This document shows positions 4,688 to 51,905 of a DNA stretch of 64,000 nt, one piece after another. The DNA comes from Liolophura sinensis (lineage: Eukaryota > Mollusca > Polyplacophora > Chitonida > Chitonidae). Position 1 is the stretch's first letter; each line of letters opens with the position of its first letter. Where the stretch lies: assembly GCF_032854445.1 (NCBI RefSeq), contig NC_088302.1, positions 32,705,979 through 32,769,978 of the forward strand, in the 5' to 3' direction. The translations under genes and the position numbers were made by a program. The notes under the pieces are model-generated. The model was not told the DNA's origin and ran no database searches. It saw only the letters and a list, made by a program, of their open reading frames with translations.

Positions 4688-4882
4688 ACGAACATTATCT
4701 GAACGATTTCTGGACGAACATTATCTGAACGATTTCTATACGAACATTATCTGAACGATTTCTGGACGAACATTATCTGAACGATTTCTGTACGAACATT
4801 ATCTGAACGATTTCTGGACGAACATTATCTGAATGATTACTGGACGAACATTATCTGAACAATTTCTGGACGAACATTATCC
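4688..4882 (+). repeat. 26-bp tandem repeat (about 7.5 copies)
   Basis: The unit is built on acgaacattatctgaacgat followed by a variable six-base spacer (ttctgg, ttctat or ttctgt). Unit starts at 4688 and 4714 give the 26-bp period. Spacer variants alternate in the first units, hinting at a 52-bp dimer. The last unit is broken by an extra base (ttatcctgat). Confidence 0.9.
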
Positions 4883-12600: not shown

Positions 12601-15600
12601 TAGAGTATAATTAGGTTCCTAAATCTAGTTACTAATCCTTAAAAGATGTTCTGGGGCCTCCGTGGCTCAGTTGGTTAGTGAGCTAGCGCAGCGTGATGAC
12701 CCAGAAATCTCTTACCAATGCAATGGCTGTGAGTTCAAGTCCAGCTCATGCTGGCTTCCTCTTCGGCCGTACGTGGGAAGGTCTGGCAGCAACCTGCAGA
12801 TGGTCGTGGGTTTCCCCCGGGCTCTGCCCGGTTTCCTCCCACCATAATGCTGGCAGCCGTCGTATAAGTGAAAAATTCTTGAGTACAGTGTAAAACACCA
12901 ATCAAATAAATAAATAAGTAAATTAAAAGATGTTCTCAACACATCCACCCAAACTCCACAACTTTGACACCACGCTACCTCCCTGAAACTCCACTTGTAA
13001 TATATATGACATCTGCTCTGAATAAGTCCACAGATTATTATTAAAATATGAAGTGTTCTTAACGGGAAATAGTGGAATATACTCAAACATTATATATTCA
13101 ATTGGCGTTTTAAAATATTGTCATATATTCCATATTGAAAAGAAATTCAATTAAACTATGGCAGTTGGCTTTATGTGTGTAGGAAACCTAGCACAAACCA
13201 CCAAAACCAGTTGTTCTTGGAGTAGGTTGCACTGTACATTGTATGTTTAATTATATTTATTATACATTTGAAGCCAAATTTCATACTGAAGTCCAGACCT
13301 TACCAGTCATGTAGATACTCAGTTCGTATAGCCTTCTCTTTAACTATTGCAGGATGATGAACTGATTGTGTATGACACTGAGGTGATCTATGTGAACTGC
13401 ACCCCAGACAATGTTGAATCAGAAACCAATGTCCGCTCAGATAACGAAACGTTTTATCAGAGCCCAGAATCAGACAGCCATCTGGATGATTCCGTGGACA
13501 ACGCTTATGAGCTTCTGGCCAGTTTCAAGCTCAATGATGCGGAAACAATGTTCCTGAACGTGTTCAAAGACCTGGATGAAACTTCTGAGGAAGGCAAACA
13601 GTCAACAGTGAAGGTGATGATGGGTCTGGCTGAGATCTGCTTACGGAAAAGTCGTATGACACGTGGGAATCCAATGGAGAGTCAGTGGCTGCAAGCGCAC
13701 AACATTGCACTTCTGCAGTATGCTGTTCAGCTGTGCAGTGAAGCACTGCAGAGTGAGGGCAACAACCAAATGATCACCTGGTATCAAGAGCAGCACAATT
13801 GTGCGCTTAAAAAAATGAAACCTGCAGAGGAGAACTTTGTTAAGTCCATGTACACATACATCCAGAGTGACAAAGCTTCTCTTCAACGTCAGATGTTCTT
13901 TTCACTCTCTGCACCCACAACGCCAACGGGAGAATTCAACTTTCCCCTGAGCAGCACCCCACTTCAGCATGTCTTCCCTGGGGTACAGTTCCAGAGGAAT
14001 GCCTCTGTGGAACACTTGTCATCGGAAAATAATGCTTTTCCTGGGGGACTCCAATGGATGGTGAAATTTCAAGAATACTGCCAAGACCGTCTCCGAAGTA
14101 AGGATTCAGCGCGAATCGTGGAGCAGCTGTTTTCATTGAACTCTGAAATTTCTGACCTACTGAATAAGGATCCGGAGGATTGTGATAAAGACAAGGCTAC
14201 TGCACAATCCGAAACAAAACCTGATGAAGGATGTAATGATATAACTCAAGAATTAGACGTGCCATCTGAACAGCAGTCTGATGAAGGATGCAAGGATAAT
14301 GTTCAGGAATCAGGAATCAGAGATGAGGCTGTAGAGCTTCAGACAGTGTCTCCTCTACATGCCTGTACAGTGAGCCTCACCCTAGCCAAACTGATAAGTA
14401 AACTTGCAGAAAAACTGGTCGGAGAAGGAGAATGTGTGAAAGGGGAAGCCCTGTATGAACAGAGCAGAGAAATTCTAGAGTTCATTCAGGATGGAACAAA
14501 AGGTATGGTGGTGCTGTATGCCCAGACTGTCAAGAAACTAGGGATGCTGAAGATTAAACTAGGCGATATTAGCTCTGGCATCCAACTGCTACAAACAGCC
14601 ATTCGCTCATACAGGGAAGTGGGCGATGAGGCCTCTAACGGAGACATTGCCTTGGCGCTAGTAGAAATTGGGGACAGTCATACCATTGAGAAATGGGATT
14701 CGGAGTCCATATTTGATCATGTTATTGATGTCATACGAGAGGCTTTTGACAAGGAATCTCTTGCTGATGTCCCACTTACGTCTAAGAGCAACAATGACCC
14801 AGAGGAGAGCAAGTGCAATTCACCAAGCAAAGAGATGAGCCAGAGCTACTGTTCGAGCACTCAGGAAGCCATATGGTGTTATGAGGAGGCCATTGACATC
14901 CTTGAGAATCTGCCATTGTGCGATGTTCTGAACAGTACCGTGTATGCCCGTGCCATCACCAGGCTTGGGGATTCGCACTTCATACAACAGGAGTACAATG
15001 AAGCTCTGTTCTGCTACGAGAAAGCTCAGACACTCTTCCGTGTGACAAGCGGGAGGAGTGCCCTAATACAGCATGGTCACGTCCTCTGCATGCTTGGCAC
15101 TACCAGTTTCATGTTACATCTCTACCCAAAAGCTGCCATGGTTTTCGAGTGTGCATACCGTATGCTGAAGCACGCATTCAGGGGAGAGTACCCTTACAAA
15201 ATGGCCCTCCTTTTGTCTCTGCTGGGATTAGCCACTTACAAGCTCCAGCATTACCACAAGTGTATTTCATGGAGCTTCCGTGCCTATGAAATGTACATTG
15301 ATCTGTTTAAAGACAGCCTAACAAATCTGCCCAGACAGAAGCTCTGGATAGCCTGCCAGACTCTGTACATCCTGGGGAATTCGTACAACGTCCTGAATCT
15401 TCATGAGAAGGCCATCCACTACTTAACCCTTGGGAGATCCATCATGACTGTGGCCAGTAACACGGACAGGCGACAGTACATGCGGGTTCTACAAGTCCTG
15501 GGGGACTGCTACTTTGCGCAGTACGACTACAAGACAGCTCTCACGTTTTACAACGAGGCGCTGCAAGACTTTGAAGGAGAAGCCTTGCAGCTGATTCGCG

Positions 15601-16550
15601 TTCATCAGAACATCGCGGAGCTGAACCAGTCTTCGGATGACAAGGGTTTCCACAATCAACTACTGAGCAGATCAGCCGATGCTCACCTCCACATGCAGGA
15701 GTACAAGGATGCATTCGGGCTTCTTGCACAGGTCAGCAATATTCAGGACGTTTTAGAAGATGACATAAAGGGTGATCTGGTGACGACACTCCATCAACTA
15801 GGCAACATGCACTCTATGTCTGGGGATGCAGACCAGGCCATCCAGTCATTCAAGGACTGTGTGGAAATATACCAGGAGGTGCACGGGGATCTTGGGCCCG
15901 AGATGAGCATCATTCTGGGCAACCTGGCCACAATGTGCTACGTGAAGGCATGCACCAGCGAAGGCGCCGAAGAGGAGTTGGAGATGACCATAGCTGCAGA
16001 GCAGAACTTCCAGGATGCCATTGCCCTGGAGAATAATCTCAACGTTCTGGTGAAGTATTCCAGCTTTCTGTTCAGCCAGGGAAACTATGACGATGCTGTC
16101 ATGTATCTCCAAGACGCCTTAAAGCAAGCCCATGAAGAGCAGTTGATTGGTTACAGTGGGCTAGAGAAGGTCACTCTGCCAGAAGTTCTCCAGGATGAGG
16201 TGGATTATCAGTCCGAGGTCAGCTTCCCAGCTACACCTCTCATCCACTACCTCCTGATGGTATCACACAAGGCACTGGGTGAAATGAAAGTGGCAGAGGA
16301 CCATCTCCTCCTCCTGATGAAGGAGGTCATGAAGGGAGACAACCCTGTCATGCACTCTCTGGTAGGCTATGCTCTCATGGACATGGGGATGTTCAAGGAT
16401 GCGGCAGAGTTCTTTGCTATTGCGTTTCACATGAAAGAGGATTATCATTTGGCCACAGACAATTATTGTACATGTTTAGGGATCATGGTACTACACACTC
16501 TACAGAAATCTGTGGAAAACATCTACTTCAGCAGAAACAAAGAGCAGTAG
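9691..16550 (+). CDS. Tetratricopeptide-repeat protein, 1174 aa, three exons
   Basis: Exons join in frame: 9691-9784 (MPPNLGEEDTIERIIKDP..., donor GTAAGT), 12168-12400 (acceptor tttgcag, donor GTAAGT) and 13353-16550 (acceptor ctattgcag, stop TAG). The phases are 1 then 0, giving 3525 nt. Residues 1-110 are basic and low in repeats. From about residue 440 to 1150 there are roughly nine or ten helical TPR units, recognisable by patterns such as LGDSHFIQQEYNEALFCYEKA, LGDCYFAQYDYKTALTFYNEA and LGNMHSMSGDADQAIQSFKDC. An acidic linker at about 395-425 holds two DEGC-type repeats. There is no signal peptide or membrane segment, so a cytoplasmic scaffold is likely. TPR domains bind partner peptides; the partner here is unknown. 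I do not recognise an orthologue. The first ATG is chosen because it opens the frame continued by exon 2; upstream noncoding exons are possible. Confidence 0.85.
10980..11480 (+). repeat. Repeat family E, three or four diverged tandem units
   Basis: Lies in intron 1 of the TPR gene. The words attgagctcagggt-tgcac-catgta, agcacaat-g-aca-gggggat and gttaaacaaattgtt recur at about 11012, 11215, 11330 and 11450. A second locus with the same order lies at 45590-45865 in intron 5 of MBD2/3. Confidence 0.6.
11496..11750 (+). mobile_element. tRNA-derived SINE family S, copy 1
   Basis: It has a Pol III box A-like word (tggctcagtcattt), box B-like word (gagttcaagtcca), a conserved gggtttcccccgggctctgc core and the tail tgaaatattcttgagtac. 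It is flanked by an imperfect 12-bp duplication, tctttcgtagct (11484-11495) and tctttggtagcc (11751-11762). It lies in intron 1 of the TPR gene. Confidence 0.85.
12653..12922 (+). mobile_element. tRNA-derived SINE family S, copy 2, with exact target duplication
   Basis: A full-length copy in intron 2 of the TPR gene, ending in a (aaat)n tail. The 14-base duplication ttaaaagatgttct is exact on both sides (12639-12652 and 12923-12936). This is direct evidence of insertion by LINE-type retrotransposition. Antisense open frames over it are not genes. Confidence 0.92.
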
Positions 16551-20440: not shown

Positions 20441-20450
20441 CCACTTGGCC

Positions 20451-20756
20451 ATGACCCACTGTTTGCAAGGTTGTTAACAAAGTTAGAGTTGCATGAAGAT
20501 GTGTAACACCCCATGACCAACTGTTTGCAAGGTTGTTAACAGAGTTGAGTTGCATGAAGATGTGTAACACCCCATGACCGACTGTTTGCAAGGTTGTTAA
20601 CAGAGTTGAGTTGCATGAAGATGTGTAATATCCCATGACCCACTGTTTGCAAGGTTGTTAACAGAGTTGAGTTGCACGAAGATGTGTAATATTCCATGAC
20701 CCACTGTTTGCAAGGTTGTTAACAGAGCTGAGTTGCAGGAAGATGTGTAACACACC
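20451..20756. repeat. 61-bp tandem repeat, five copies
   Basis: Units start with atgacc at 20451, 20513, 20574, 20635 and 20696, each holding gtttgcaaggttgttaacag. The spacing is 62, 61, 61 and 61 bp. The repeated antisense open frame over it is a by-product of the repeat and is not a gene. Confidence 0.93.
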
Positions 20757-32802: not shown

Positions 32803-35800
32803 ATGATGTCCGAAAAGCGTCGAAGTGATTGTGTCGGATTGCCCACAGGATGGAAGCGCGAAGAAGTTGTGCGAAAATCTGGCCTCTCTGCTGGAAAAAC
32901 AGACGTGTATTACTTTAGGTTTGTGTTCCACGATGCAGGAAATCGTTCACAAGCGTTGTTGTTGTTTCGGTGATAATTTATTCTGTGTTTAGGTTTTGGA
33001 TAAAAGGTGTGTTACTAGTGTTCTACTCCCAGAAGTAAGATGAAGGTCAAAGGCCATAAGGGCTAGACAACTGTAACACTCATGTAAAATGAATCTGGGA
33101 AGGGGGATTAGGGGAGGGAAGTTATAGCCATCTTATTGGATGAATTTGCTAGAGGCTAGACATAGTCAGCACTTTTATCTAATATTAGAATAATGACCAC
33201 AATAACACTGATCGATGGCAAAGCGCTTTCATTTTGACACAGCGTAATTTGTTGAAGAATGTCTCCTGTCTTGCAGTAACATCGAATTATTGATCCATTA
33301 GTAGATTGCTTGGTAAACCCGAATTTATGTAGGCTGGTCGTTTTGAGCGATCAATAATTTTCATTGCCAACGAGTACCATATTCTTAGAGTCGCACTCCT
33401 GTTCACATGAAACCCCTTGCCTTGCATCTCTTTGCTCAGTGAAAAGCCACTGGATCAGGGTAATCTATTTTCGTAACAAGGAAAATCTCGTACAGGAAGT
33501 CTGGTACATTTTATGGAAATGCAATTTTCCGATGAAGTGATATTTTGAAGTCATTTAATGTTTTCTCACGAGCTAAAGACCCCACTATGAATCCACTTGA
33601 ATGCCAGTGTGGGAAACTGATCAAAGTAGCAAAGTTTCATGTATGTGCAAATTGTCATCGCCAAATATTCTACTGGACAACTGCACATAAAATTTTACGC
33701 ACAAAACCACTTTTTGCTGGACATGTCTGACAAGTCAACTGTAATATCGAACCCTGGTGTTAAACTGGGAAAAAAAAAGGGTGGCCAAAACTCTTGTTGT
33801 ATGACTAAGCCACATTCACACTCTAGTCTGCACATTACTGCACTCGCCACAGCAGACCAGCCATGGTCAAATTAGCTCCCGGTCTGGACAGTGCCCATTG
33901 ACGTTTGTGGCTGCAGCAGCTTTTCAGTGTCAATAAAATGGTAACATATCAAAATAACACTTTCTGATTGACATTTTCAGTTTCATTATTTGTACTACAA
34001 GTTGCTGCCAATGGGGATATGATTTCTAAGGCAGAATTTCAATGAAACAGGCACTTTAAGTAGCACACATACCACTAGTAGGGTTTAAGCGTAGCGCTTA
34101 GTGCGAAAATTAAGACCCAGCTCCCGTATCTTGTTACATTTTGATTGAGAAAATAGCGGCCATCTGAAATGTAAATGTGGCTCTTGTAACTTTTAAGTGT
34201 GGACGTTGGTCAGCTTTTCTCCAAATATTTAAAATATGTCTTCATACCCAAAGAAAAGGGCAATACTAAAATGTTATTGTTGACCCTTTCTCCTGTAAAG
34301 TTTTTTATATTTTCTGTTTTCGATGTAAACTATAACTGCCGGCAGTTATATGGCTTTCATGTGGTTTGTACACCCAACCTTTAGCGTCCACTTGCTAAAA
34401 CTTTCCACTTTCTCCACCACAGACCATTCAAATCAGTTCTATGTTCTTCTGAAACCAGATCTCATATTTTCATTTAAAACAAAACTATTTCAGCAATACC
34501 TGTCATCATGATCTTCACAAATGAACCATAGTGTCCATACTTAACTCCAAAATGAATTTGGTAAGATTGGTACGGAGTAGACTGGACTTGGACCCCAGGT
34601 TGAGAGGACCGATAGTCTGGTAAATTCATGATAATTGAAGAAAAAAAGGGAACAAAAGATTGGCAGGAATAAACTGTATTTGAACCGGTGAGTGCTATGG
34701 GTGATGTTCATTGAGGCTATGGTGAAGTGCAGTAAAAAGAAAAAAACATTGCTCTCAAATAACAGTACTGGGCCACATGTTTAGAAAGATTATTCCTTTG
34801 ATCTACTGCTCCCCCTGGCCAGACAGAATTAGAATTCACACCCTGTAGCCAGCACTCTACAGTGAACGTGTTTCATGCAGTCTTAACATGAAGCTCTCGT
34901 GTTATTTGAATGGGAGATTTTGTCCATTTTGGTATGTATGTACGCTGGGGGCGGGTGGGTGAGTTTGAGTCATACTTCATATTTTTGATGGTTTTGTTGT
35001 CATAACCTGAAAACTATACCAAGTACAAAATAATTGTGACAGATCTGTAATCCTGACGTCAAGACTACTAAACAGTGTGTTTTTAAGCATTTTATGCAGT
35101 TTTTAGACTTGACCTACTTTATAGCTAATTTCATTGGTCAGTTACAGCATAACTTGCATACCAAACAAAAAGTTTTTTGACAATATAGGCACAGCAATCC
35201 ACCTGAAACATGCAAGTGAAATTTCGTCTAAAGATCAGTAGCCCTTTCTGAAAAAGGATGGTTTAAGCTTATCAATAAAATTCAAAATGGCTGCTAGTTG
35301 ACGTGACTGGTCAAACTGCCCAAAATGTCAAGAGCTGCTTCATATGTTTGTTTTTTAAAATGCCAAGTTTATTTTTGCTACCTTTACCGGTTTTGGAGAT
35401 ATTGCAATTTTACGAGCTGGCTGTGAATAAAAATAACAAGTTTTTAACACATTTGAATGGCAAAACTATCACTTGTAGCCCTGTGGTCCTACCAGTCAGA
35501 AATGAAGATATTTAGTTGATCTATCTACTGACCAATTTTCAGCTTCATAGCTTTTGCGGTATCCTGTCACTTGACATTTGAAAAATGACACTAAAACGAG
35601 CTTTAATTGCAATTTAAAGAAAACTACACATTGTAGGAAAGAACTAAAACCATGATTGTCTTCAGCAGGTCAAACTACATCTGATTGCTATCTTGTTTTT
35701 TTCAAAATTCAACAGTAGGTCATCATGTGACTAAAACGACCAACAGCGAGCTTCCACATTTCTCGACCAATTTGCATAAAATTATCAATCCTTTATCAAT

Positions 35801-38800
35801 ACTGGGGGTAATTATCAATACCCCCAGTAGTCTTGTACATGCATATCAATTTTCATTGCTATCAAATAGGCAGTTCTGGAGAAGAAATTTTTTCTAGATT
35901 TCCATACTTCTCCAATATGGCCGAAAAGTGGGTCACAGGTGGGTAAAGTTTGATACTCCAGCTGGTAGCCCAAGTGATTTGGTAAATGAAACTGTGTAGA
36001 AAGTTAACAGCTGTGACAGGAAGTTATCTCGCAGAAGGAAAAAACAGTTGTCAGAGGAGAAGAAAAATGATCTGTAGTGAGAACAGTAGTCCTCTAAGCG
36101 AAGCTTGGAAGCCCAACAAATAATTATTTTTTGAAAGTCTTCAGCGCTTGTTACTTCTGGCACTCTAGTATCATTTTTACATAAAACTGACTGATATTTA
36201 ACCTTAAATCATTCGTGAAAAGGAACTCTAAAAAAAGATTATGGGATGTGAAGAAGGTGACTTCCCTCCCCCCCTCCTCACAAAAATTAATTTGTTTTTG
36301 ATACATATTTTCTGTTGTTTAGCCCTCTACTTTAAGCATACTTTCCACCAGTTGTCAAAAATTTGAGGAAACAATGTCAGTGATGCACTTGAGAGCTTAG
36401 CCTGACCAGGTTAAGCACTCCGCATGCATGACATGCTGGCTTTTCCCAAACACAATTGTTTTCACAGCTGTCACAGTTGATGCCACAAGTGCAGGTTACT
36501 TAATTTCCAGATGCACAACTAGAGTCTTATGATAACTCTACTTAAAATCCACTTTTACACCCTGGGAAGAAATCTGGGAATTTTTTTGTTTCTTCATATA
36601 TTCAGTTAGGGAGACATTCTAAACCGCATATATTAAGAAAGTTTCATGTATCCTTTAAGTGGAAAACATTTTCAGCATGGTGTTATACAGGAAATGGGTT
36701 AATTTAAGTAAGTTTATGATACAAAAGGATTGAAACTCATAGGGGTAAATCAAAGGAGCTTTATTTTAGCTGCAGGGGCCTCCATGGCCGAGGTGGTTAA
36801 CCTGCCAGCACGATGCAATGATCCATGAGCCTCTCGCAGATGCAGTTGTGGTGAATTCAAGTCCAGCGCATGCTGGCTTCCTCTCCGACCATACGTGGAA
36901 AGGTCTGCAGCAACATGCAGATGGTCAGGGGTTTCTTTATTCCATCTCCCACCATTAATAAGTGAAATATTCTTGAGTATGGGTAAAACACTAACCAAAT
37001 AGATAAATAAATAAATTTTCGCTGCATATATTTTCTTCAGAAGCAGTCTTCCTTGGAAAAACAATCAAGTGAGGCCCTTTCAACATTTTCTAAAAATATT
37101 AAAACTAGGCAGCTTTGCCTAACCTTATATATTTTTCTTTTTCTCAGTCCTGATGGCAAGAAGATCCGAAGCAAACCTCAGTTGTCACGTTATCTGGGAG
37201 AACTGTTGGACTTGAGCGCCTTTGATTTCCGATCTGGGAAGACAATTCACAGCGCTCTGCGCAAAAGTAAGCGGCACAGAGGAACTGTATATGACCACGC
37301 CAGAGGTTTGTCTTACGACTCAGTTTGCATTTTTGGGGTGAGCATGGTGGAAAAGGGTGTTTGGGGGTGATGCGTGTACTAATACTGCTGGGATCATGGA
37401 CACTTGTGCATATTCATTTAACAAAGTCTTGCCAGATTTCAGCTTCTAGTGTAGTTCTAGGGAATGCCCAGTGCTTTGATAAGGGGCTTTGCTTCCAAAT
37501 GGTAATGGCTAACAAATGCTAACCAACCCTTGTGTTCTCAGCGACCTAACTTGCAGAATTCAGTTAATTTTCAGTTAGCAATCACACTTATTTACAGATT
37601 GAGAAAATTTTATTGAGATTTTCATTAAAAAAAAAAGAGATGGGAGATAATAAGTGTATTCAACATTTATGCTGTTTGCATTGTTTGAAGTACACAAATA
37701 CATTTTAACTCTTGGTACAGTAAAATTCTTTTATCCCAGGCTAGAGATGCATGGTTGTACTGTCTGGTGTGAGTTGCCTCCCTTACATTGACTCTTCACC
37801 ATGGTTTATATAGATAGGTGTCTGTAAATCAGGTGACCAGAAATAATGCTTGCGAACATAAATGAAGAAATGAAATTATAAAGCATGAGAGCCTTGCTAT
37901 TTCCTCCTCCCTACCTTTGTTTCTAGGCAGAAAAACCTCCAATTTTTCAGGTAATTTTTGTTTGCCTTCATTTAAACACTTAAGCTCTTAAGCTGTATTC
38001 TGATTATTTTGTTTCACATGTTGCAGATTTTCTGAATTTCTGTTTGTTTTGATATTAAGATCACGTCCACATTTTTTTACTGAATTCTTTCTGTTTCTGC
38101 TTTCCCTTCGTCGATTTGACAAGTCACAAACAACAGATCTGTTCAAATTTTTTGGTGTTTATTAATATGAAACATATGATAGAAACAGAAAACAAATGAT
38201 AGAAACGGAAAACAAATGATAGAAAAAGAAAACATATGATAGAAACAGAAAGCAAATGCAGATGAATAAAGGTAGTGTTTTGCAATTTATTTTGATCTTG
38301 TATATGTACTTTTGGTTCACCTGAATTTGGAACTAGCCTATAAGCTGTTGGTACCCCCAATTCTGCAACCTTTCAGTGCAGCTTATGTGCATTTTTCATT
38401 TGATTTTGGAAACAAAACTACATTGGTTGGATTGTCCAGTTTCTGGGCTTCACTAAAAGTGTAATTTTATCTTTCGTCACAGAATAATGCCTTCAGAATA
38501 TGCTTGAATTAACACCTTGCAAACATGCTTAAAGAATGAAGAAATAAAGTATACATATAATTTCTTTCTTGGATTTGCTTGAACAAAACTTCTTATACAA
38601 AAGTGCAAATTTTCATTCAAGAAGCTCCATGTACCATGTATTTATTTCAAGACCGGAAACAGTTTAAAGTGTTTTCTATTCCCATATGCCCTATGAGCAA
38701 TTTTGAGTAATACATTGCGCAATATTTCTACATTTAATTCATGAAGCTGGTGTATGTCGTTTGTAAGGTCTGAAAGCAGCCTGCTAAAGATTGTGGGTTT

Positions 38801-40730: not shown

Positions 40731-43700
40731 TATGTTTTTTTTTTATTATCATCTATGAAACCTTTAGGTTCTAAATGTAGCCCAGTCATGCTTATCACTC
40801 CAGTTTTGTTTCTCGTTACATTTTTCATTCATTTATTTTTTGTTCTGTTTTGCTTCCCTTTGTCTAGTTGACAAGCTGTTACACTGAACATTCTTGAATA
40901 TTAGCAAAGACTTAACCAATGGCATTGCTGTGTGTGATCTTGCAGGGATTTGTCACGACACTACACTGGCTCTGCCCATACGTCAGACTGCCTCTATCTT
41001 CAAACAGCCTGTAACTGTGGTGAGAACGCGCCCCGAGGGGAAGACTAAGTCAGACCTCAAACAGGGGTCTCAGGAGAATCAACCCAGACAGGTGGGCAGA
41101 GGTCATGTCAAGGTCGAAAACCACTCTCAGCCTGACCTTGATTAGAACAATTGAATCTTGCGTTAGACCACACCAGTTTATATTTTTGTTTTACCGGCAG
41201 AAATGACTCTCTTTCTCTTTGGCTGAAAGAGGTATAAAAAAAAAAAAATAACTGACAAATATCTTCTTTTTGAGAAATGTGGACTTTCCCAGAAATTTTT
41301 TTTGTCTTAAATTCATGTTTATTTGATCAATAAATATTTAAAAAACAGGAAAATCAAAAAAAATGTGTGTCAATCAAAATAAAAATGTAGGTTTTTAGGT
41401 TTTTTATATTCAAGTTTTAGATATTTTAGTGTCAGATTGCCCATAAAACACGAAATAAGATTGGTGTCACCTTAGCAGATGTCAAAATGACAAATTTATT
41501 AAAAAAATACCTTTTATCTGGACAAAGTGCAGAACCTTAAAAAGTTTTTGTGGAAATATGTCACTTTATTTCTTGTGTTCATACTGAAAATTGCTTTCAA
41601 GCCATTGATTTGTCATAATGATCTGTCTTGCACCATTGATTTTATATTTATAAACTAAGGCTGAATGTTGGGAAGCTAATGTGAAATATGAAAATATTCA
41701 TAATCGCGGGTAGGTGGTCCTGGATGGACGAGGTCTTGATGAAAAGTGTACTTGTTGGCATGTTTCAGCTGTTCTGGGAGAAGCGCTTACAAGGTTTGCG
41801 GGCCAGTGATAACACAGGAGAATCTCTGCTCTCCCTTCAACTTCCTAAATCCATTCATGGTGAGTCTACACTTGAGATGTGCTTGTATGTCAGTTGTTGT
41901 GTGTATGAGTCAGTGATAACACAGGAGAATCTCTGCTCTCACTGCAACTTCCTAAATCCATTCATGGTGAGTCTATACTTGAGTTGTGCTTCTATGTCAG
42001 TTATCAAGTGCATGGGTCAGTGATAACTCAGAAGAATCTCTGCTCTCACTGCAACTTCCTAAATCCATTCATGGTGAGTCTACACTTGAGTTGTGCTTGT
42101 ATGTCAGTTGTTGAGTGCATGAGTCAGTGATAACACAGGAGAATCTCTGCTCTCACTGCAACTTCCTAAATCCATTCATGGTGAGTCTATACTCAAGTTG
42201 TGCTTGTATGTCAGTTATCAAGTGCATGAGTCAGTGATAACACAGGAGAATCTCTGCTCTCACTGCAACTTCCTAAATCCATTCATGGTGAGTCTACACT
42301 TGAGTTGTGCTTGTATGTCAGTTGTTGAGTGCATGAGTCAGTGATAACACAGGAGAATCTCTGCTCTCACTGCAACTTCCTAAATCCATTCATGGTGAGT
42401 CTATACTCAAGTTGTGCTTGTATGTCAGTTATCAAGTGCATGGGTCAGTGATAACTCAGAAGAATCTCTGCTCTCACTGCAACTTCCTAAATCCATTCAT
42501 GGTGAGTCTATACTTGAGTTGTGCTTCTATGTCAGTTATCAAGTGCATGGGTCAGTGATAACTCAGAAGAATCTCTGCTCTCACTGCAACTTCCTAAATC
42601 CATTCATGGTGAGTCTACACTTGAGTTGTGCTTGTATGTCAGTTGTTGAGTGCATGAGTCAGTGATAACACAGGAGAATCTCTGCTCTCACTGCAACTTC
42701 CTAAATCCATTCATGGTGAGTCTATACTCAAGTTGTGCTTGTATGTCAGTTATCAAGTGCATGAGTCAGTGATAACACAGGAGAATCTCTGCTCTCACTG
42801 CAACTTCCTAAATCCATTCATGGTGAGTCTACACTTGAGTTGTGCTTGTATGTCAGTTGTTGAGTGCATGAGTCAGTGATAACACAGGAGAATCTCTGCT
42901 CTCACTGCAACTTCCTAAATCCATTCATGGTGAGTCTATACTCAAGTTGTGCTTGTATGTCAGTTATCAAGTGCATGGGTCAGTGATAACTCAGAAGAAT
43001 CTCTGCTCTCACTGCAACTTCCTAAATCCATTCATGGTGAGTCTACACTTGAGTTGTGCTTGTATGTCAGTTGTTGAGTGCATGAGTCAGTGATAACACA
43101 GGAGAATCTCTGCTCTCACTGCAACTTCCTAAATCCATTCATGGTGAGTCTATACTCAAGTTGTGCTTGTATGTCAGTTATCAAGTGCATGAGTCAGTGA
43201 TAACACAGGAGAATCTCTGCTCTCACTGCAACTTCCTAAATCCATTCATGGTGAGTCTACACTTGAGTTGTGCTTGTATGTCAGTTGTTGAGTGCATGAG
43301 TCAGTGATAACACAGGAGAATCTCTGCTCTCACTGCAACTTCCTAAATCCATTCATGGTGAGTCTATACTCAAGTTGTGCTTGTATGTCAGTTATCAAGT
43401 GCATGGGTCAGTGATAACTCAGAAGAATCTCTGCTCTCACTGCAACTTCCTAAATCCATTCATGGTGAGTCTACACTTGAGTTGTGCTTGTATGTCAGTT
43501 GTTGAGTGCATGAGTCAGTGATAACACAGGAGAATCTCTGCTCTCACTGCAACTTCCTAAATCCATTCATGGTGAGTCTATACTCAAGTTGTGCTTGTAT
43601 GTCAGTTATCAAGTGCATGAGTCAGTGATAACACAGGAGAATCTCTGCTCTCACTATGAGTAATCCCTACAGCCATGTTCATGAGTAAGGACAGATGCTT

Positions 43701-46259
43701 TTTAATGGCCTCAGCATCGACCCATTGAAGATTGGATTGGAAGTACATTGTACAGAGGTGTTCAAAGTAATCTCATGGAACAAGACAGGGCTGGGGGCCT
43801 CCGTGGCTCAGTCGGTTAAAGCGCTAGCGCAGCGTAATGACCCAGGAGTCGCTCACCAATGCGGTCGCTGTGAGTTCAAGTCCAGCTCATGCTGGCGGCC
43901 GTACGTGAGAAGGCCTGCCAGCAACCTGCGGATGGTTGTGGGTTTCCCCCGGGCTCTGCCCGGTTTCCACCCACCATAATGCTGGCCGCCGTCGTATAAG
44001 TGAAATATTCTTGAGTACGGCGTAAAACACCAATCAAAAAAAAAAAAAAAAAAAAAAAAAGACAGGGCTGTGGTAGCATACATATTTACAGCCCTACAGA
44101 GCTTGTCCACAGCTGATTATTCATGCTTGATCGTCTGCATTATTATAGGAAGTATGCAAGAATTGGTATGGAAACTTTCAGTACCTCAGTCTTTTCGCAT
44201 ATGAAGAGCATTTATTCACATTTTTAATTTGACTGTGAGACATGTACTGTGGAACTTACAGTACATGTATTGTCTGGGTGGTTTGTTGTCTGTGTTTTTG
44301 TTACTTTTGTGAGACAGAGATTTCTAGCCTTGATAATTCTCATACGATAACTTGAAATTAATGATAATGTACAGTGTTTCCCATATCCATCAACTAGTCA
44401 GTCACACTGTCACCAATTTTGTGTTGATGTTGTACAGGTATTGGGCCAGAGCTGACACCGGATAGTGTCTTACAGAGCATCTCGGCAGCCCTTCATCTCA
44501 ACAGTCAGCCTGTCACTGGCCAAAACGCTTCCAAATCTTCAATCAACAAAAATCCAGGTGTCCATATTGATGCGAACCAGCCACACATACAGGTAAGGCA
44601 AATAGCTACGTGTACATGCATCGGGGAGCAAGCTTTGTTGGAGGGGCTAAGGTGCTTGCCGCTTCAACACTATGTTACAAGAAATGTGGGCTCAATACCA
44701 GTCTCTGACGGCAAATTTTGAAGATTTCCATGCTTACCCGAATTCCTCAACTCCCTGTGTTTAATTTGATTTTGGAGACAAAATTGATTGGATTGGCCAG
44801 GGTCAGGGCTTTAGAAAAAGTATAATTTCATCAGTCTACACAGGATAATAACTTCAGAATATGCTTTAATAAACGCCTTGCCAACACACGGAAACACGCA
44901 ATGCTTTGTTCTCAGGACCTTGATGGTAACAATTGGTCAATGGAGTCTCCCTTGTATAGTCTTACATAAAGTTTACTGGAGACAATTTGTTTACCACCAG
45001 CATAATTTGTCAGGGTTAATGATTCACTCGGGGGCATACGGTTTTCTCTGCTTATACTATGCTGGTCGCCATGGTATAAGTAAAAAATTTGTCAGTACGG
45101 TGTTAAACAATGGTCGAAATGAAAGTGAACACAAGAAAAGAAAAATTGTGTTTTATTTTAACAGGTACAGCCAGCATTACTAGTATCATTGTGATGAATG
45201 CCAGTATGTTTGACATCATAAAGAAGTGCACATTCCGATGAAGATCCATTAACACATAGGTTTTGTGTCACTTTACAAAATTACTTTGATGGCTTTTAAC
45301 TCACTTGTGCAAAGTACAGGAGTAGATTATGTGATGTCCCAGGCCATACGCCTTACAGCACTCTCCCTGGCTTTACATCGCTGCCACCACTAGACAAGCT
45401 TGACATTTGGAGCCTGTGAGACACACGTAGGCTTGATTAGACTTAGCCTCACCACTTATGTCCTGGTCAAACTATTTAATCAGCATTGATCAATAAAATT
45501 GTTTCAGAGTTTGGTTAAAAACATGTTGCACAAATTTTAGATAAAGAGAATGCATGAATATACAGTATTATCAGAAGCAAAATTACAAAATTCATAATTT
45601 CATGCATTAGAATCAATGTTACTGTAAATGTTAGGGGTGGTCTCTCAAAAAAGTACAGCATGTATTGACCTGAAGTTTTACATGCATATGAAGCACAATG
45701 ACATGGATTGGGTGGGGTGGGAGGTGGGTGGTGGGGGGGTCGAGTTGGTATTCCATTGCTGGTGCACTGTGTGCATATTAATGACCATTAATTAGCAAAT
45801 ACACATCTGCAGTACCTCATGTATAAAGCTGAAGTTTTGCATTCCTATAGGTGAGCTGTTTGCTAACCTTAGCAGTTTTTTTAATGTTACTGGTAGAATG
45901 ATTTACTTACAATAATTTAGTTATCTTCTTTTTCACAGTCACATTCCTTACTTGTATATTTGAGGTGTTATAAGCATATCCCCAAAATAACTATGTTTGG
46001 GATAAAATCTGACAGAATTAATCAAGATACTTGCCGAAGGGTATTTGCCTTTAATGTGTACTTCACAGTGGCTATATTTCATTTCCTCAGATGTGCATTT
46101 TATAAGCACAAGTCTCCCTTAACCCTCAGTAATCACTTTTTACCTTATTTTGTGCCCCCAAAGGCGACGGTGGTGTCTGAGGAGGATGTGAGACAACAGG
46201 AGAGACTCGTGACTGATGCCAGAAAGAGGCTGCAGGATGCTATCAAAGGATTCGCTTAG
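32803..46259 (+). CDS. MBD2/3: Methyl-CpG-binding domain protein MBD2/3, 253 aa, six exons
   Basis: Exons 32803-32918, 37148-37305, 40946-41091, 41769-41859, 44438-44592 and 46164-46259 join in frame (phases 2, 1, 0, 1, 0), 762 nt including TAG. The MBD domain (about residues 10-75) shows LPTGWKREEV, SGLSAGKTDVYYFS and GKKIRSKPQLSRYLG. Next come the conserved LALPIRQTASIFKQPVTVV, LFWEKRLQGL, and the C-terminal coiled coil SEEDVRQQERLVTDARKRL. In this family the MBD binds methylated CpG, and the coiled coil binds the GATAD2/p66 subunit of the NuRD deacetylase-remodelling complex in the nucleus. The length is near that of animal MBD2/MBD3 cores. ATG codons at 32803 and 32806 are adjacent, and both fit the N-terminus. 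The exon 1 donor is the weak GTTTGT. Introns hold SINEs, MITEs, an antisense exon candidate (intron 2) and a remarkable exon-derived array (intron 4). Confidence 0.93.
35040..35960 (+). mobile_element. Repeat element W, diverged copy 2
   Basis: Lies in MBD2/3 intron 1. Shares cgaccaacagcgagcttcca, ttctggagaagaa and ccaatatggccgaa with 7430-7600, in the same order and orientation. It carries its own hairpin at 35801-35828 but lacks the (AAT)n and terminal hairpin of copy 1. Boundaries are approximate. Confidence 0.45.
35801..35828. repeat. Perfect 10-bp hairpin
   Basis: ACTGGGGGTA and its exact reverse complement TACCCCCAGT are separated by eight bases (attatcaa). Confidence 0.92.
36775..37014 (+). 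mobile_element. SINE family S, copy 7, with target duplication
   Basis: Its head reads catggccgaggtggttaa, the copy closest to a serine-type tRNA 5' half. It is flanked by attttagctgca (36763-36774) and attttcgctgca (37015-37026). The insertion lies about 120 bp before MBD2/3 exon 2. Confidence 0.85.
38173..38258 (+). repeat. 20-bp tandem repeat, about 4.3 copies
   Basis: Units of the form ca(a/t)atgatagaaac-gaaaa start at 38173, 38193, 38213, 38233 and 38253. It lies in MBD2/3 intron 2. Confidence 0.9.
38363..38535 (+). repeat. Interspersed repeat family C, copy 2
   Basis: Contains gattttggaaacaaaactac, ggttggattg, agtgtaatttta and cagaataatgccttcagaat in the same order as 4460-4675. It lies in MBD2/3 intron 2. 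Confidence 0.6.
38756..38872 (+). mobile_element. SINE family S, 3' fragment (copy 8)
   Basis: Core and tail only: accataatgctggcagctg, gtgaaatattcttgac and an A-rich end. It lies in MBD2/3 intron 2. Confidence 0.7.
39369..39505 (-). CDS. Candidate exon of an unidentified minus-strand gene, inside MBD2/3 intron 2
   Basis: On the minus strand a strong acceptor (ctcctctctag) precedes 137 nt that are open in one frame and end at a strong donor (AACATG|GTGAGT). The product reads TGLAQLIEPTLNVLVNRSAI, then CRERQVRKENKFRELLNDYP and GYSNM: an amphipathic, charged, helix-like composition quite unlike the surrounding AT-rich frames. Entry phase is 1 and exit phase 0. It could belong to the minus-strand gene at 24.5-29.1 kb, but the phase-0 exit does not fit that gene's first exon, which needs phase 1, so at least one exon would be missing between them. 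An unrelated nested gene or an exon relic is also possible. I do not recognise the sequence. Confidence 0.5.
40671..40733. repeat. (TA)n microsatellite
   Basis: About thirty TA dinucleotides with one TACA interruption near the end. It lies in MBD2/3 intron 2, 210 bp before exon 3. Confidence 0.95.
41163..41476 (-). mobile_element. MITE family M, copy C (reverse)
   Basis: Plus-strand ends are ttagaccacaccagtttat and gattggtgtcacctta, inverted relative to each other. The internal words appear reversed relative to copy A (gagaaatgtggactttccc). It fills about half of MBD2/3 intron 3, starting some 70 bp after exon 3. Confidence 0.65.
41804..43655 (+). repeat. 107-bp tandem array derived from MBD2/3 exon 4 plus its splice donor
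   Basis: Units start with cagtgataac every 107 bp (41804, 41911, 42018 and on to 43623), about 17.3 copies. The first unit is the true 3' part of exon 4 (41804-41859) plus the first 51 bases of intron 4. Each later complete unit repeats the exon-derived part, ending in ccattcatg|gtgagtct, and about 50 bp of intron-derived spacer. Spacers are of two types (acacttgag...gttgttgag and atactcaag...gttatcaag). From about 42660 they alternate in a four-unit pattern. The last unit is truncated after tctctgctctcact. Confidence 0.95.
43793..44060 (+). mobile_element. SINE family S, copy 9, youngest-looking, 25-base A tail
   Basis: Full length: head gggcctccgtggctcagtcg, box B-like gagttcaagtcca, core gggtttcccccgggctctgc, tail cttgagtacggcgtaaaac, then 25 A bases (44036-44060). 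The target duplication aagacagggct occurs at 43782-43792 and 44059-44069. It interrupts an older repeat also present uninterrupted near 29805-29872. It lies in MBD2/3 intron 4, just after the 107-bp array. Confidence 0.93.
44735..44890 (+). repeat. Interspersed repeat family C, copy 3
   Basis: Contains cctcaactccctgtgt, gattttggagacaaaattg, ggattggcca and aacttcagaatatgcttt in the family order. It lies in MBD2/3 intron 5. Confidence 0.55.
45590..45865 (+). repeat. Repeat family E, second locus
   Basis: Shares agaatcaatgtta, ggtctctca, gtattgacctgaagtttt-aca and agcacaatgaca with 10980-11480, followed by a G-rich run (ggtgggtggtgggggggtcg). It lies in MBD2/3 intron 5. Confidence 0.55.
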
Positions 46260-51599: not shown

Positions 51600-51905
51600 C
51601 TTTAGGTTGTCGTATGGTATTTCAAAGTCACCCTGTTATCCTGAATTTTCCTGTTATTCAGAGGTTTTCTGTTTATAATTCTGTTACCAGGAAGATTTCT
51701 CTTATTCCAAGGTTTTGTGTTATCCCAAGGTTTTCTGTTTATAATTCTGTTACCTGGAAGGTTTCTGTTGTCCTAAGGTTTTGTGTTATTCTGAGATTTT
51801 CTGTTATCCCAAGGTTTTCTGTTTATAGTCCTGTTACCTGGAAGGTTTCTGTTATTCCAAGGTTTTCTGTAATCCCAAGGTTTTTGATTATTCTGAGGGT
51901 TTTGT
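51600..51905 (+). repeat. Degenerate 18-bp minisatellite
   Basis: The unit aaggttttctgttatccc is repeated many times with variants. Two longer units contain tttataattctgttacctgg or its close relative. The open frame over it (a PRFSVI-like repetition) reflects the 18-bp period and is not a gene. Confidence 0.85.

Follow-up and report, generated by a model that had tools for sequence, protein, structure and literature searches.

A 107-bp minisatellite across the exon 4-intron 4 boundary of a chiton MBD2/3 gene and exon-based arrays of similar anatomy in other genes

The MBD2/3 gene and the tandem array at exon 4

The window, i.e. the whole stretch of 64,000 nucleotides of Liolophura sinensis DNA that was analysed (RefSeq assembly GCF_032854445.1, contig NC_088302.1), carries on its plus strand an MBD2/3 gene with six exons, the limits of which were set by coding continuity. 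The coding part of exon 1 (32803..32918), placed by its reading frame and by the joined 253-aa translation, and exon 2 (37148..37305) matched Pfam MBD, exon 3 (40946..41091) matched MBDa, and exon 5 (44438..44592) and the coding part of exon 6 (46164..46259) matched MBD_C, each in its reading frame; exon 4 comprises 91 nt (41769..41859). Joined via the first donor at the end of exon 4, the six exons provide one uninterrupted frame of 253 aa. The matches to MBD, MBDa and MBD_C bear out the name MBD2/3 that the gene had received in the first-pass annotation. A search of the genome for PF14048 (MBD_C) gave no match beyond exons 5 and 6 of the gene and thus revealed no second MBD2/3 copy. Elsewhere on the plus strand of the window, positions 13344-16550 contain one open reading frame of 1,068 codons that appears TPR-like by eye.

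About 70% of intron 4 (41860-44437, plus strand, approximately 2.6 kb) is occupied by a tandem array of 107-bp units that extends from 41804 to 43655 on the plus strand and comprises 17 full units and a partial unit of 33 bp. Tandem Repeats Finder reported the same interval with a period of 107, 17.3 copies and 93% matches, corresponding to a head-to-tail minisatellite. The unit consists of the last 56 nt of exon 4 and 51 nt of intron 4 and thus spans the exon-intron boundary, unit 1 being the authentic end of the exon (41804-41859) together with the first 51 nt of the intron. The initial description of a unit running from inside exon 4 through the authentic donor was thereby confirmed, as were the array end at 43655 and the copy number of about 17; the interval of that description opens at 41769, the first base of exon 4, whereas the unit itself starts at 41804, which is 35 nt into the exon.

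The junction ATG/GTGAGT, in the context CCATTCATG/GTGAGT (the slash marks the exon-intron boundary), is present in 17 of the 17 full units, in agreement with the earlier claim that all complete units keep the donor. The sequence CCATTCATGGTGAGT occurs exactly 17 times in the window, always on the plus strand, compared with 0.01 times on average and once at most in 100 dinucleotide shuffles. The GTGAGT of donor 1 is located at 41860..41865 and is the sole donor yielding the full MBD2/3 frame; the GTGAGT motifs of donors 2 to 17 follow on the same strand with a spacing of 107 bp (41967..43577). With a U1 duplex energy of -9.2, the array donors are among the best 48 of the 4,039 plus-strand GT sites in the window, whereas the donors of exon 3 and exon 5 reach -10.3 and -11.5. 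Accordingly, the characterization of the donors as identical strong sites holds for the donor 9-mer, which is the same throughout, but not for the units, which differ in 10 columns, and the strength is good rather than the highest. Selection on the donors, as it might be read from their intact state in all 17 units, was rejected, since, given 10 variable columns of 107, chance alone would leave the nine donor columns without variation in 40% of cases. Four other minisatellites of the window (4688-4881, 20449-20753, 38170-38258 and 51662-51884) were tested as a local control, and GTRAGT was found in none of them on either strand.

The 10 variable columns were counted among 16 full units, with unit 1 excluded. 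On the plus strand, the region 42018..43655 displays a higher-order repeat of four units or 428 bp, consisting of three blocks that are identical letter for letter (starting at 42018, 42553 and 42981) and a fourth, partial block (43409) that ends early at the end of the array. Most units follow this order; one singular unit stands within the region at 42446 and another ahead of it at 41911. Unit 1 differs from the consensus in nine columns, five of which are invariant in the 16 other full units. Concerted evolution has taken place within the array, with the boundary unit excluded from it. Exchange in the array appears to be recent, since the three 428-bp blocks show no difference despite a genome heterozygosity of 1.24% given in the assembly paper of Liolophura japonica (PMC11068029). 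The identical blocks suggest that the array turned over recently and that individuals probably differ in copy number. Exon 4 differs from the copies by two synonymous changes, whereas the copies vary among themselves at two amino-acid-changing sites (codons assigned by eye), and for this reason coding constraint appears to act on exon 4 but not on the copies. Variable columns were less frequent in the exonic part of the unit (2 of 56) than in the intronic part (8 of 51; Fisher p 0.045), but the columns are linked, and this difference is a hint of constraint that is not built upon here.

The unit was also searched in the complete genome by a method that skips very common words, and all 10 matches were located inside the array. 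A genome-wide satellite that resembles exon 4, which the first-pass annotation had named as the case against its own reading, is rejected by this result. Another haplotype was sought through the flank 43656-44600, the matches of which elsewhere were confined to a dispersed element, and a search of Rfam gave no match at the gathering thresholds. The dispersed element is SINE-like, adjoins the array at 43789-44060 of the window and has 39 further copies with 97-99% identity among the 40 of 2,893 candidates that were scored; it has probably been active recently.

Exon-based arrays in other genes

The genome was searched for clustered donor motifs, the resulting totals being match counts that are inflated by long arrays, with an excess over the reversed motif that depends on the motif. 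Triplets of CAGGTGAGT at a spacing of 20-50 bases gave 735 matches, compared with 30 for the backward 9-mer; with 10,097 single CAGGTGAGT sites and 2,731 reversed ones, this corresponds to a per-site excess of about 7-fold in matches. The excess was smaller for triplets of CAGGTAAGT (301 versus 158 reversed), for AAGGTGAGT (153 versus 51) and for the looser motif GGTGAGT (3,186 versus 2,266). The acceptor 9-mer TTTTGCAGG gave 35 matches from 7,679 sites. Same-strand clusters accounted for 51 of the first 100 single CAGGTGAGT sites listed, whereas with the reversed motif the figure was 15 of 100.

Nine of the 40 donor-motif arrays that were fetched start within an exon that was identified by homology, and the homology reaches the first donor or ends within about five codons of it. 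These nine arrays, all on C1, affect exons encoding ankyrin repeats (L003), the Fe-hydrogenase C-terminal domain of a gene that we take to be CIAO3 (L016), a Mot1/SNF2-type helicase that is presumably BTAF1 (L017), OGDH (L020), an ABCC transporter (L023), an SPT3 homolog (L026), the RNA polymerase III subunit RPC1 (POLR3A; L032), a glycosyl hydrolase of family 31 (GH31; L034) and SUFU (L040). In each case the exon tail accounts for 26-85% of the unit and is repeated downstream, followed by GT, with a mean identity of 0.74-0.99; within the stretches fetched, there is one downstream copy for SUFU and there are two for OGDH.

The arrays were taken from four overlapping lists (sharing L012, L015 and L016) that cover the first places listed, mostly on C1. 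From the GGTGAGT list, 14 of 14 arrays were fetched and two were supported (L003 and L016); the list of CAGGTGAGT triplets provided five supported arrays (L016, L017, L020, L023 and L026) among 14 of 14 fetched, that of CAGGTAAGT triplets two (L032 and L034) among 9 of 15 fetched, and the clusters of at least three single CAGGTGAGT sites one (L040) among 8 of 8 fetched. Pfam was run on the edge ORFs of 17 of the 40 arrays, the other 23 having no edge ORF of 25 aa or lying outside the test. All 12 reversed-motif control arrays were fetched and Pfam was run on 10 of their 11 edge ORFs; none was supported, with a single match at E 0.077, and one of the controls (L043), inspected by eye, looks like a donor array when read on the other strand. 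For the two motif-triplet sets, the comparison of 7 exon-based arrays in 23 with 0 in 12 controls gave a one-sided p of 0.036 and a two-sided p of 0.07 under unequal search effort, the PDB searches having covered six donor-side ORFs and two control ORFs. With Pfam alone (E up to 1e-3), the comparison was 3 of 23 versus 0 of 12 (p 0.27). The control contrast behind the recurrence is accordingly weak.

Exon overlap was also detected for two of seven acceptor-motif arrays, the units of which contain TTTTGCAG and the start of an exon. One is located on the minus strand of C2 (L056; YjeF_N, E 1.7e-11) and the other on the plus strand of C11 (L061; HR1_TOCA, E 2.8e-5, below the Pfam cut-off). A bias of exon-based arrays towards donors is thereby weakened, with the reservation that one of the two matches lies below the cut-off, and since acceptor-motif arrays overlap exons as well, both exon boundaries appear to be affected, as in lancelets. 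In L023, L032 and L034, the native first donor has a U1 energy of -8.2 to -8.3, compared with -12.1 to -12.9 for the commonest copy donor, a difference that is biased because these arrays came from a search directed at strong copies. Scaling the 5 exon-based arrays of 14 by 735 matches per 100 listed would give about 37 genes for CAGGTGAGT triplets at 20-50 bases, a rough estimate extrapolated from the beginning of a single chromosome. Judged by homology and unit structure, donor-side exon-tail arrays appear to be recurrent in several genes of the chiton genome.

Comparison with known repeat systems

Tandem repeats spanning exon-intron boundaries have been described in amphioxus under the name of mirages, in globin genes and, with reference to Canestro et al. 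2002, in Adh3 (PMC3087553), and further mirage genes are TnC and PGBD5 (PMC3902484). According to the former report, the units measure 10 to 160 bp, are of unstable length and involve either exon boundary, and RT-PCR suggests that regular splicing is undisturbed (PMC3087553). The MBD2/3 array resembles the mirages of Adh3, the globin genes BflGb6 and BflGb9, TnC and PGBD5 in its boundary-spanning unit with splice signals and in the occurrence of such arrays in several genes per genome, and it resembles BflGb9 in particular in the duplication of a 3' exon boundary. It differs from them in belonging to a mollusc and to the gene of a NuRD subunit, in its four-unit higher-order repeat and in its 17 units, the two haplotypes described for BflGb6 having 6 and 3 units. 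In amphioxus, RNA and length polymorphism were examined, whereas the MBD2/3 array is matched on anatomy from one assembly. The array shares the anatomical features of a mirage, i.e. a head-to-tail array, a boundary-spanning unit, splice signals, concerted evolution and presence in several genes.

Repeated donors are likewise offered by a tandem repeat of human IFI6, which has a unit of about 12 bp. This minisatellite with multiple splice donors in IFI6 (6-16, G1P3) is reportedly named in the title of an article by Turri and co-workers from 1995. Two downstream repeat units of IFI6 serve as donors and give rise to three mRNAs (PMC4526556), whereas the later donors of MBD2/3 would truncate the protein. 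Arrays of dual-specific splice sites, human UBC among them, are similar in providing a splice site per unit and in that extra units can be spliced out, but the UBC sites are AGGT with frame-neutral intervals of 228 nt (PMC10809524), whereas the MBD2/3 array has TG/GT and a unit of 107, which is not a multiple of 3. Dual-specific splice sites of the UBC type were therefore rejected for the site CATG/GTGAGT, which has no AG before GT, with 107 mod 3 = 2. Finally, internal tandem repeats in human segmental duplications also represent minisatellite expansions at exon-intron boundaries that alter gene structure; they have mean units of 30 bp in four copies and belong to duplicated genes (PMC2812944), whereas MBD2/3 was the one MBD_C locus found and has 17 units of 107 bp. 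A search of the open-licence literature returned no report of mirages for molluscs and none for an MBD gene, which is an absence from that search rather than proof, and no MBD gene on record with an array of this kind was found, MBD2 being covered by one broad literature search.

Splicing products, explanations and significance of the array

Extension of exon 4 to donors 2-17 leads to an early stop in 16 of 16 cases, as does retention of intron 4, and the exon 5-6 part of MBD_C is lost from these products. Repeats that extend the protein were thus rejected by frame, since 107 mod 3 = 2 and every extension meets a stop. Each unit also contains TATGTCAG as a candidate acceptor with a pyrimidine content of 0.60-0.67, compared with 0.53-0.93 for the real acceptors of the gene, a range for which the position used was off by one base in two of the five acceptors. 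As the content lies within the real range, pseudo-exons from the array may be possible; those made in this way, of 73 nt, would introduce a stop in 16 of 16 cases. Among the products examined, donor 1 alone gives the MBD2/3 protein of 253 aa.

The array is probably a passive minisatellite of the mirage type that is spliced from its first donor, tolerated as intron and one member of a recurrent class. A local tandem duplication over the exon 4-intron 4 junction would have started the array, and repeated unequal exchange or slippage may then have placed about 16 copies of the exon tail and its 5' splice site in the intron. The first copy would remain the intact exon end, and because splicing from donor 1 would remove all later copies and leave the protein unchanged, the array would be tolerated as non-coding intron. 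Use of a later donor would give MBD2/3 without the exon 5-6 part of MBD_C, from transcripts that would probably be removed by nonsense-mediated decay. The MBD2/3 array would thus be one instance of a class in the chiton genome that presumably also includes the nine other arrays recognised by homology. Of 10 exon-tail arrays, 3 have a unit length divisible by 3, which is the chance level. A point against the passive reading is that, when donors are comparable, the intron-proximal one tends to be chosen for reasons that are not known (PMC6002489). Such a preference would select donor 17 and yield truncated MBD2/3; if donor 1 is used nonetheless, the position of the donor must be outweighed by signals at the start of the exon.

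A switch by decoy donors, in which use of the 16 extra donors or of pseudo-exons in the array would be regulated and truncated or decayed transcripts would tune how much of a NuRD subunit is made, or which isoform, is unlikely. It would fit the donor 9-mer that the 16 later donors share with donor 1, the early stop in every alternative product, as expected of a switch-off device, and the lower variability of the exonic part of the unit (p 0.045); moreover, downstream repeat donors are in use in IFI6 (PMC4526556), and mammalian MBD2c, which is devoid of the C-terminal region, does not join NuRD (PMC4880565). However, the equal anatomy of arrays in unrelated genes speaks against a NuRD-specific purpose, the fast turnover of the array is likewise unfavourable, and lancelet mirages reportedly give rise to no aberrant mRNAs (PMC3087553, PMC3902484). 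Titration of U1 by the array, as proposed in the first-pass annotation, is unlikely because donor-motif arrays are common in the genome, CAGGTGAGT triplets by themselves having 735 matches, and both this role and the tuning of NuRD found no support here; a regulatory role of the array is possible, but nothing in the analysis points to one.

The 17 sites with a U1 duplex energy of -9.2 within one intron could also bind U1 in such a way that the intron is shielded from premature polyadenylation (telescripting) or that transcription through it is aided, but this is highly improbable in view of an intron of just 2.6 kb from which AATAAA and ATTAAA are absent, so that there is little to protect. 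Similarly remote is an intronic enhancer based on TGAGTCA, which we take to be the AP-1 consensus and which is made at the unit junction: its 12 repeats in the array compare with 18 TGASTCA in the entire window, but the motif was chosen after the fact, and 5 of the 17 unit junctions have GGGTCA instead. Hardly any weight is left for an assembly artefact, with a true locus of one or a few units. The three exactly identical blocks would speak for such an artefact; against it, the differences among the units follow an ordered pattern, and the assembly of Liolophura japonica is based on PacBio HiFi reads (mean 8,347 bp, 14x; PMC11068029), which can cross an array of 1.85 kb; with reads averaging 8.3 kb, an artefact is unlikely.

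The MBD2/3 array extends the mirages from lancelets, the only animals to which this name was applied in the literature searched, to a mollusc, and it offers raw material for intron gain. Exon-boundary minisatellites might, as a tentative generalization that we would not yet put at even chances, represent a genome-wide recurrent form of intron growth in the chiton affecting, by extrapolation, dozens to hundreds of genes, with its spliceosome reliably picking the first of many equal or sometimes stronger donors, contrary to the common preference for the intron-proximal site. The MBD2/3 array provides a natural ladder, comprising 17 copies of one donor with one spacing and a nearly identical context that differ mainly in their distance from the true exon start. 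It therefore bears on how the spliceosome chooses among comparable 5' splice sites, for which the intron-proximal preference is unexplained (PMC6002489), and as RNA from Liolophura japonica exists in the form of five transcriptome accessions (PMC11068029), the choice of donor is testable now. If the generalization is true, exon ends would be set from the exon start and not by the strength or position of the donor.
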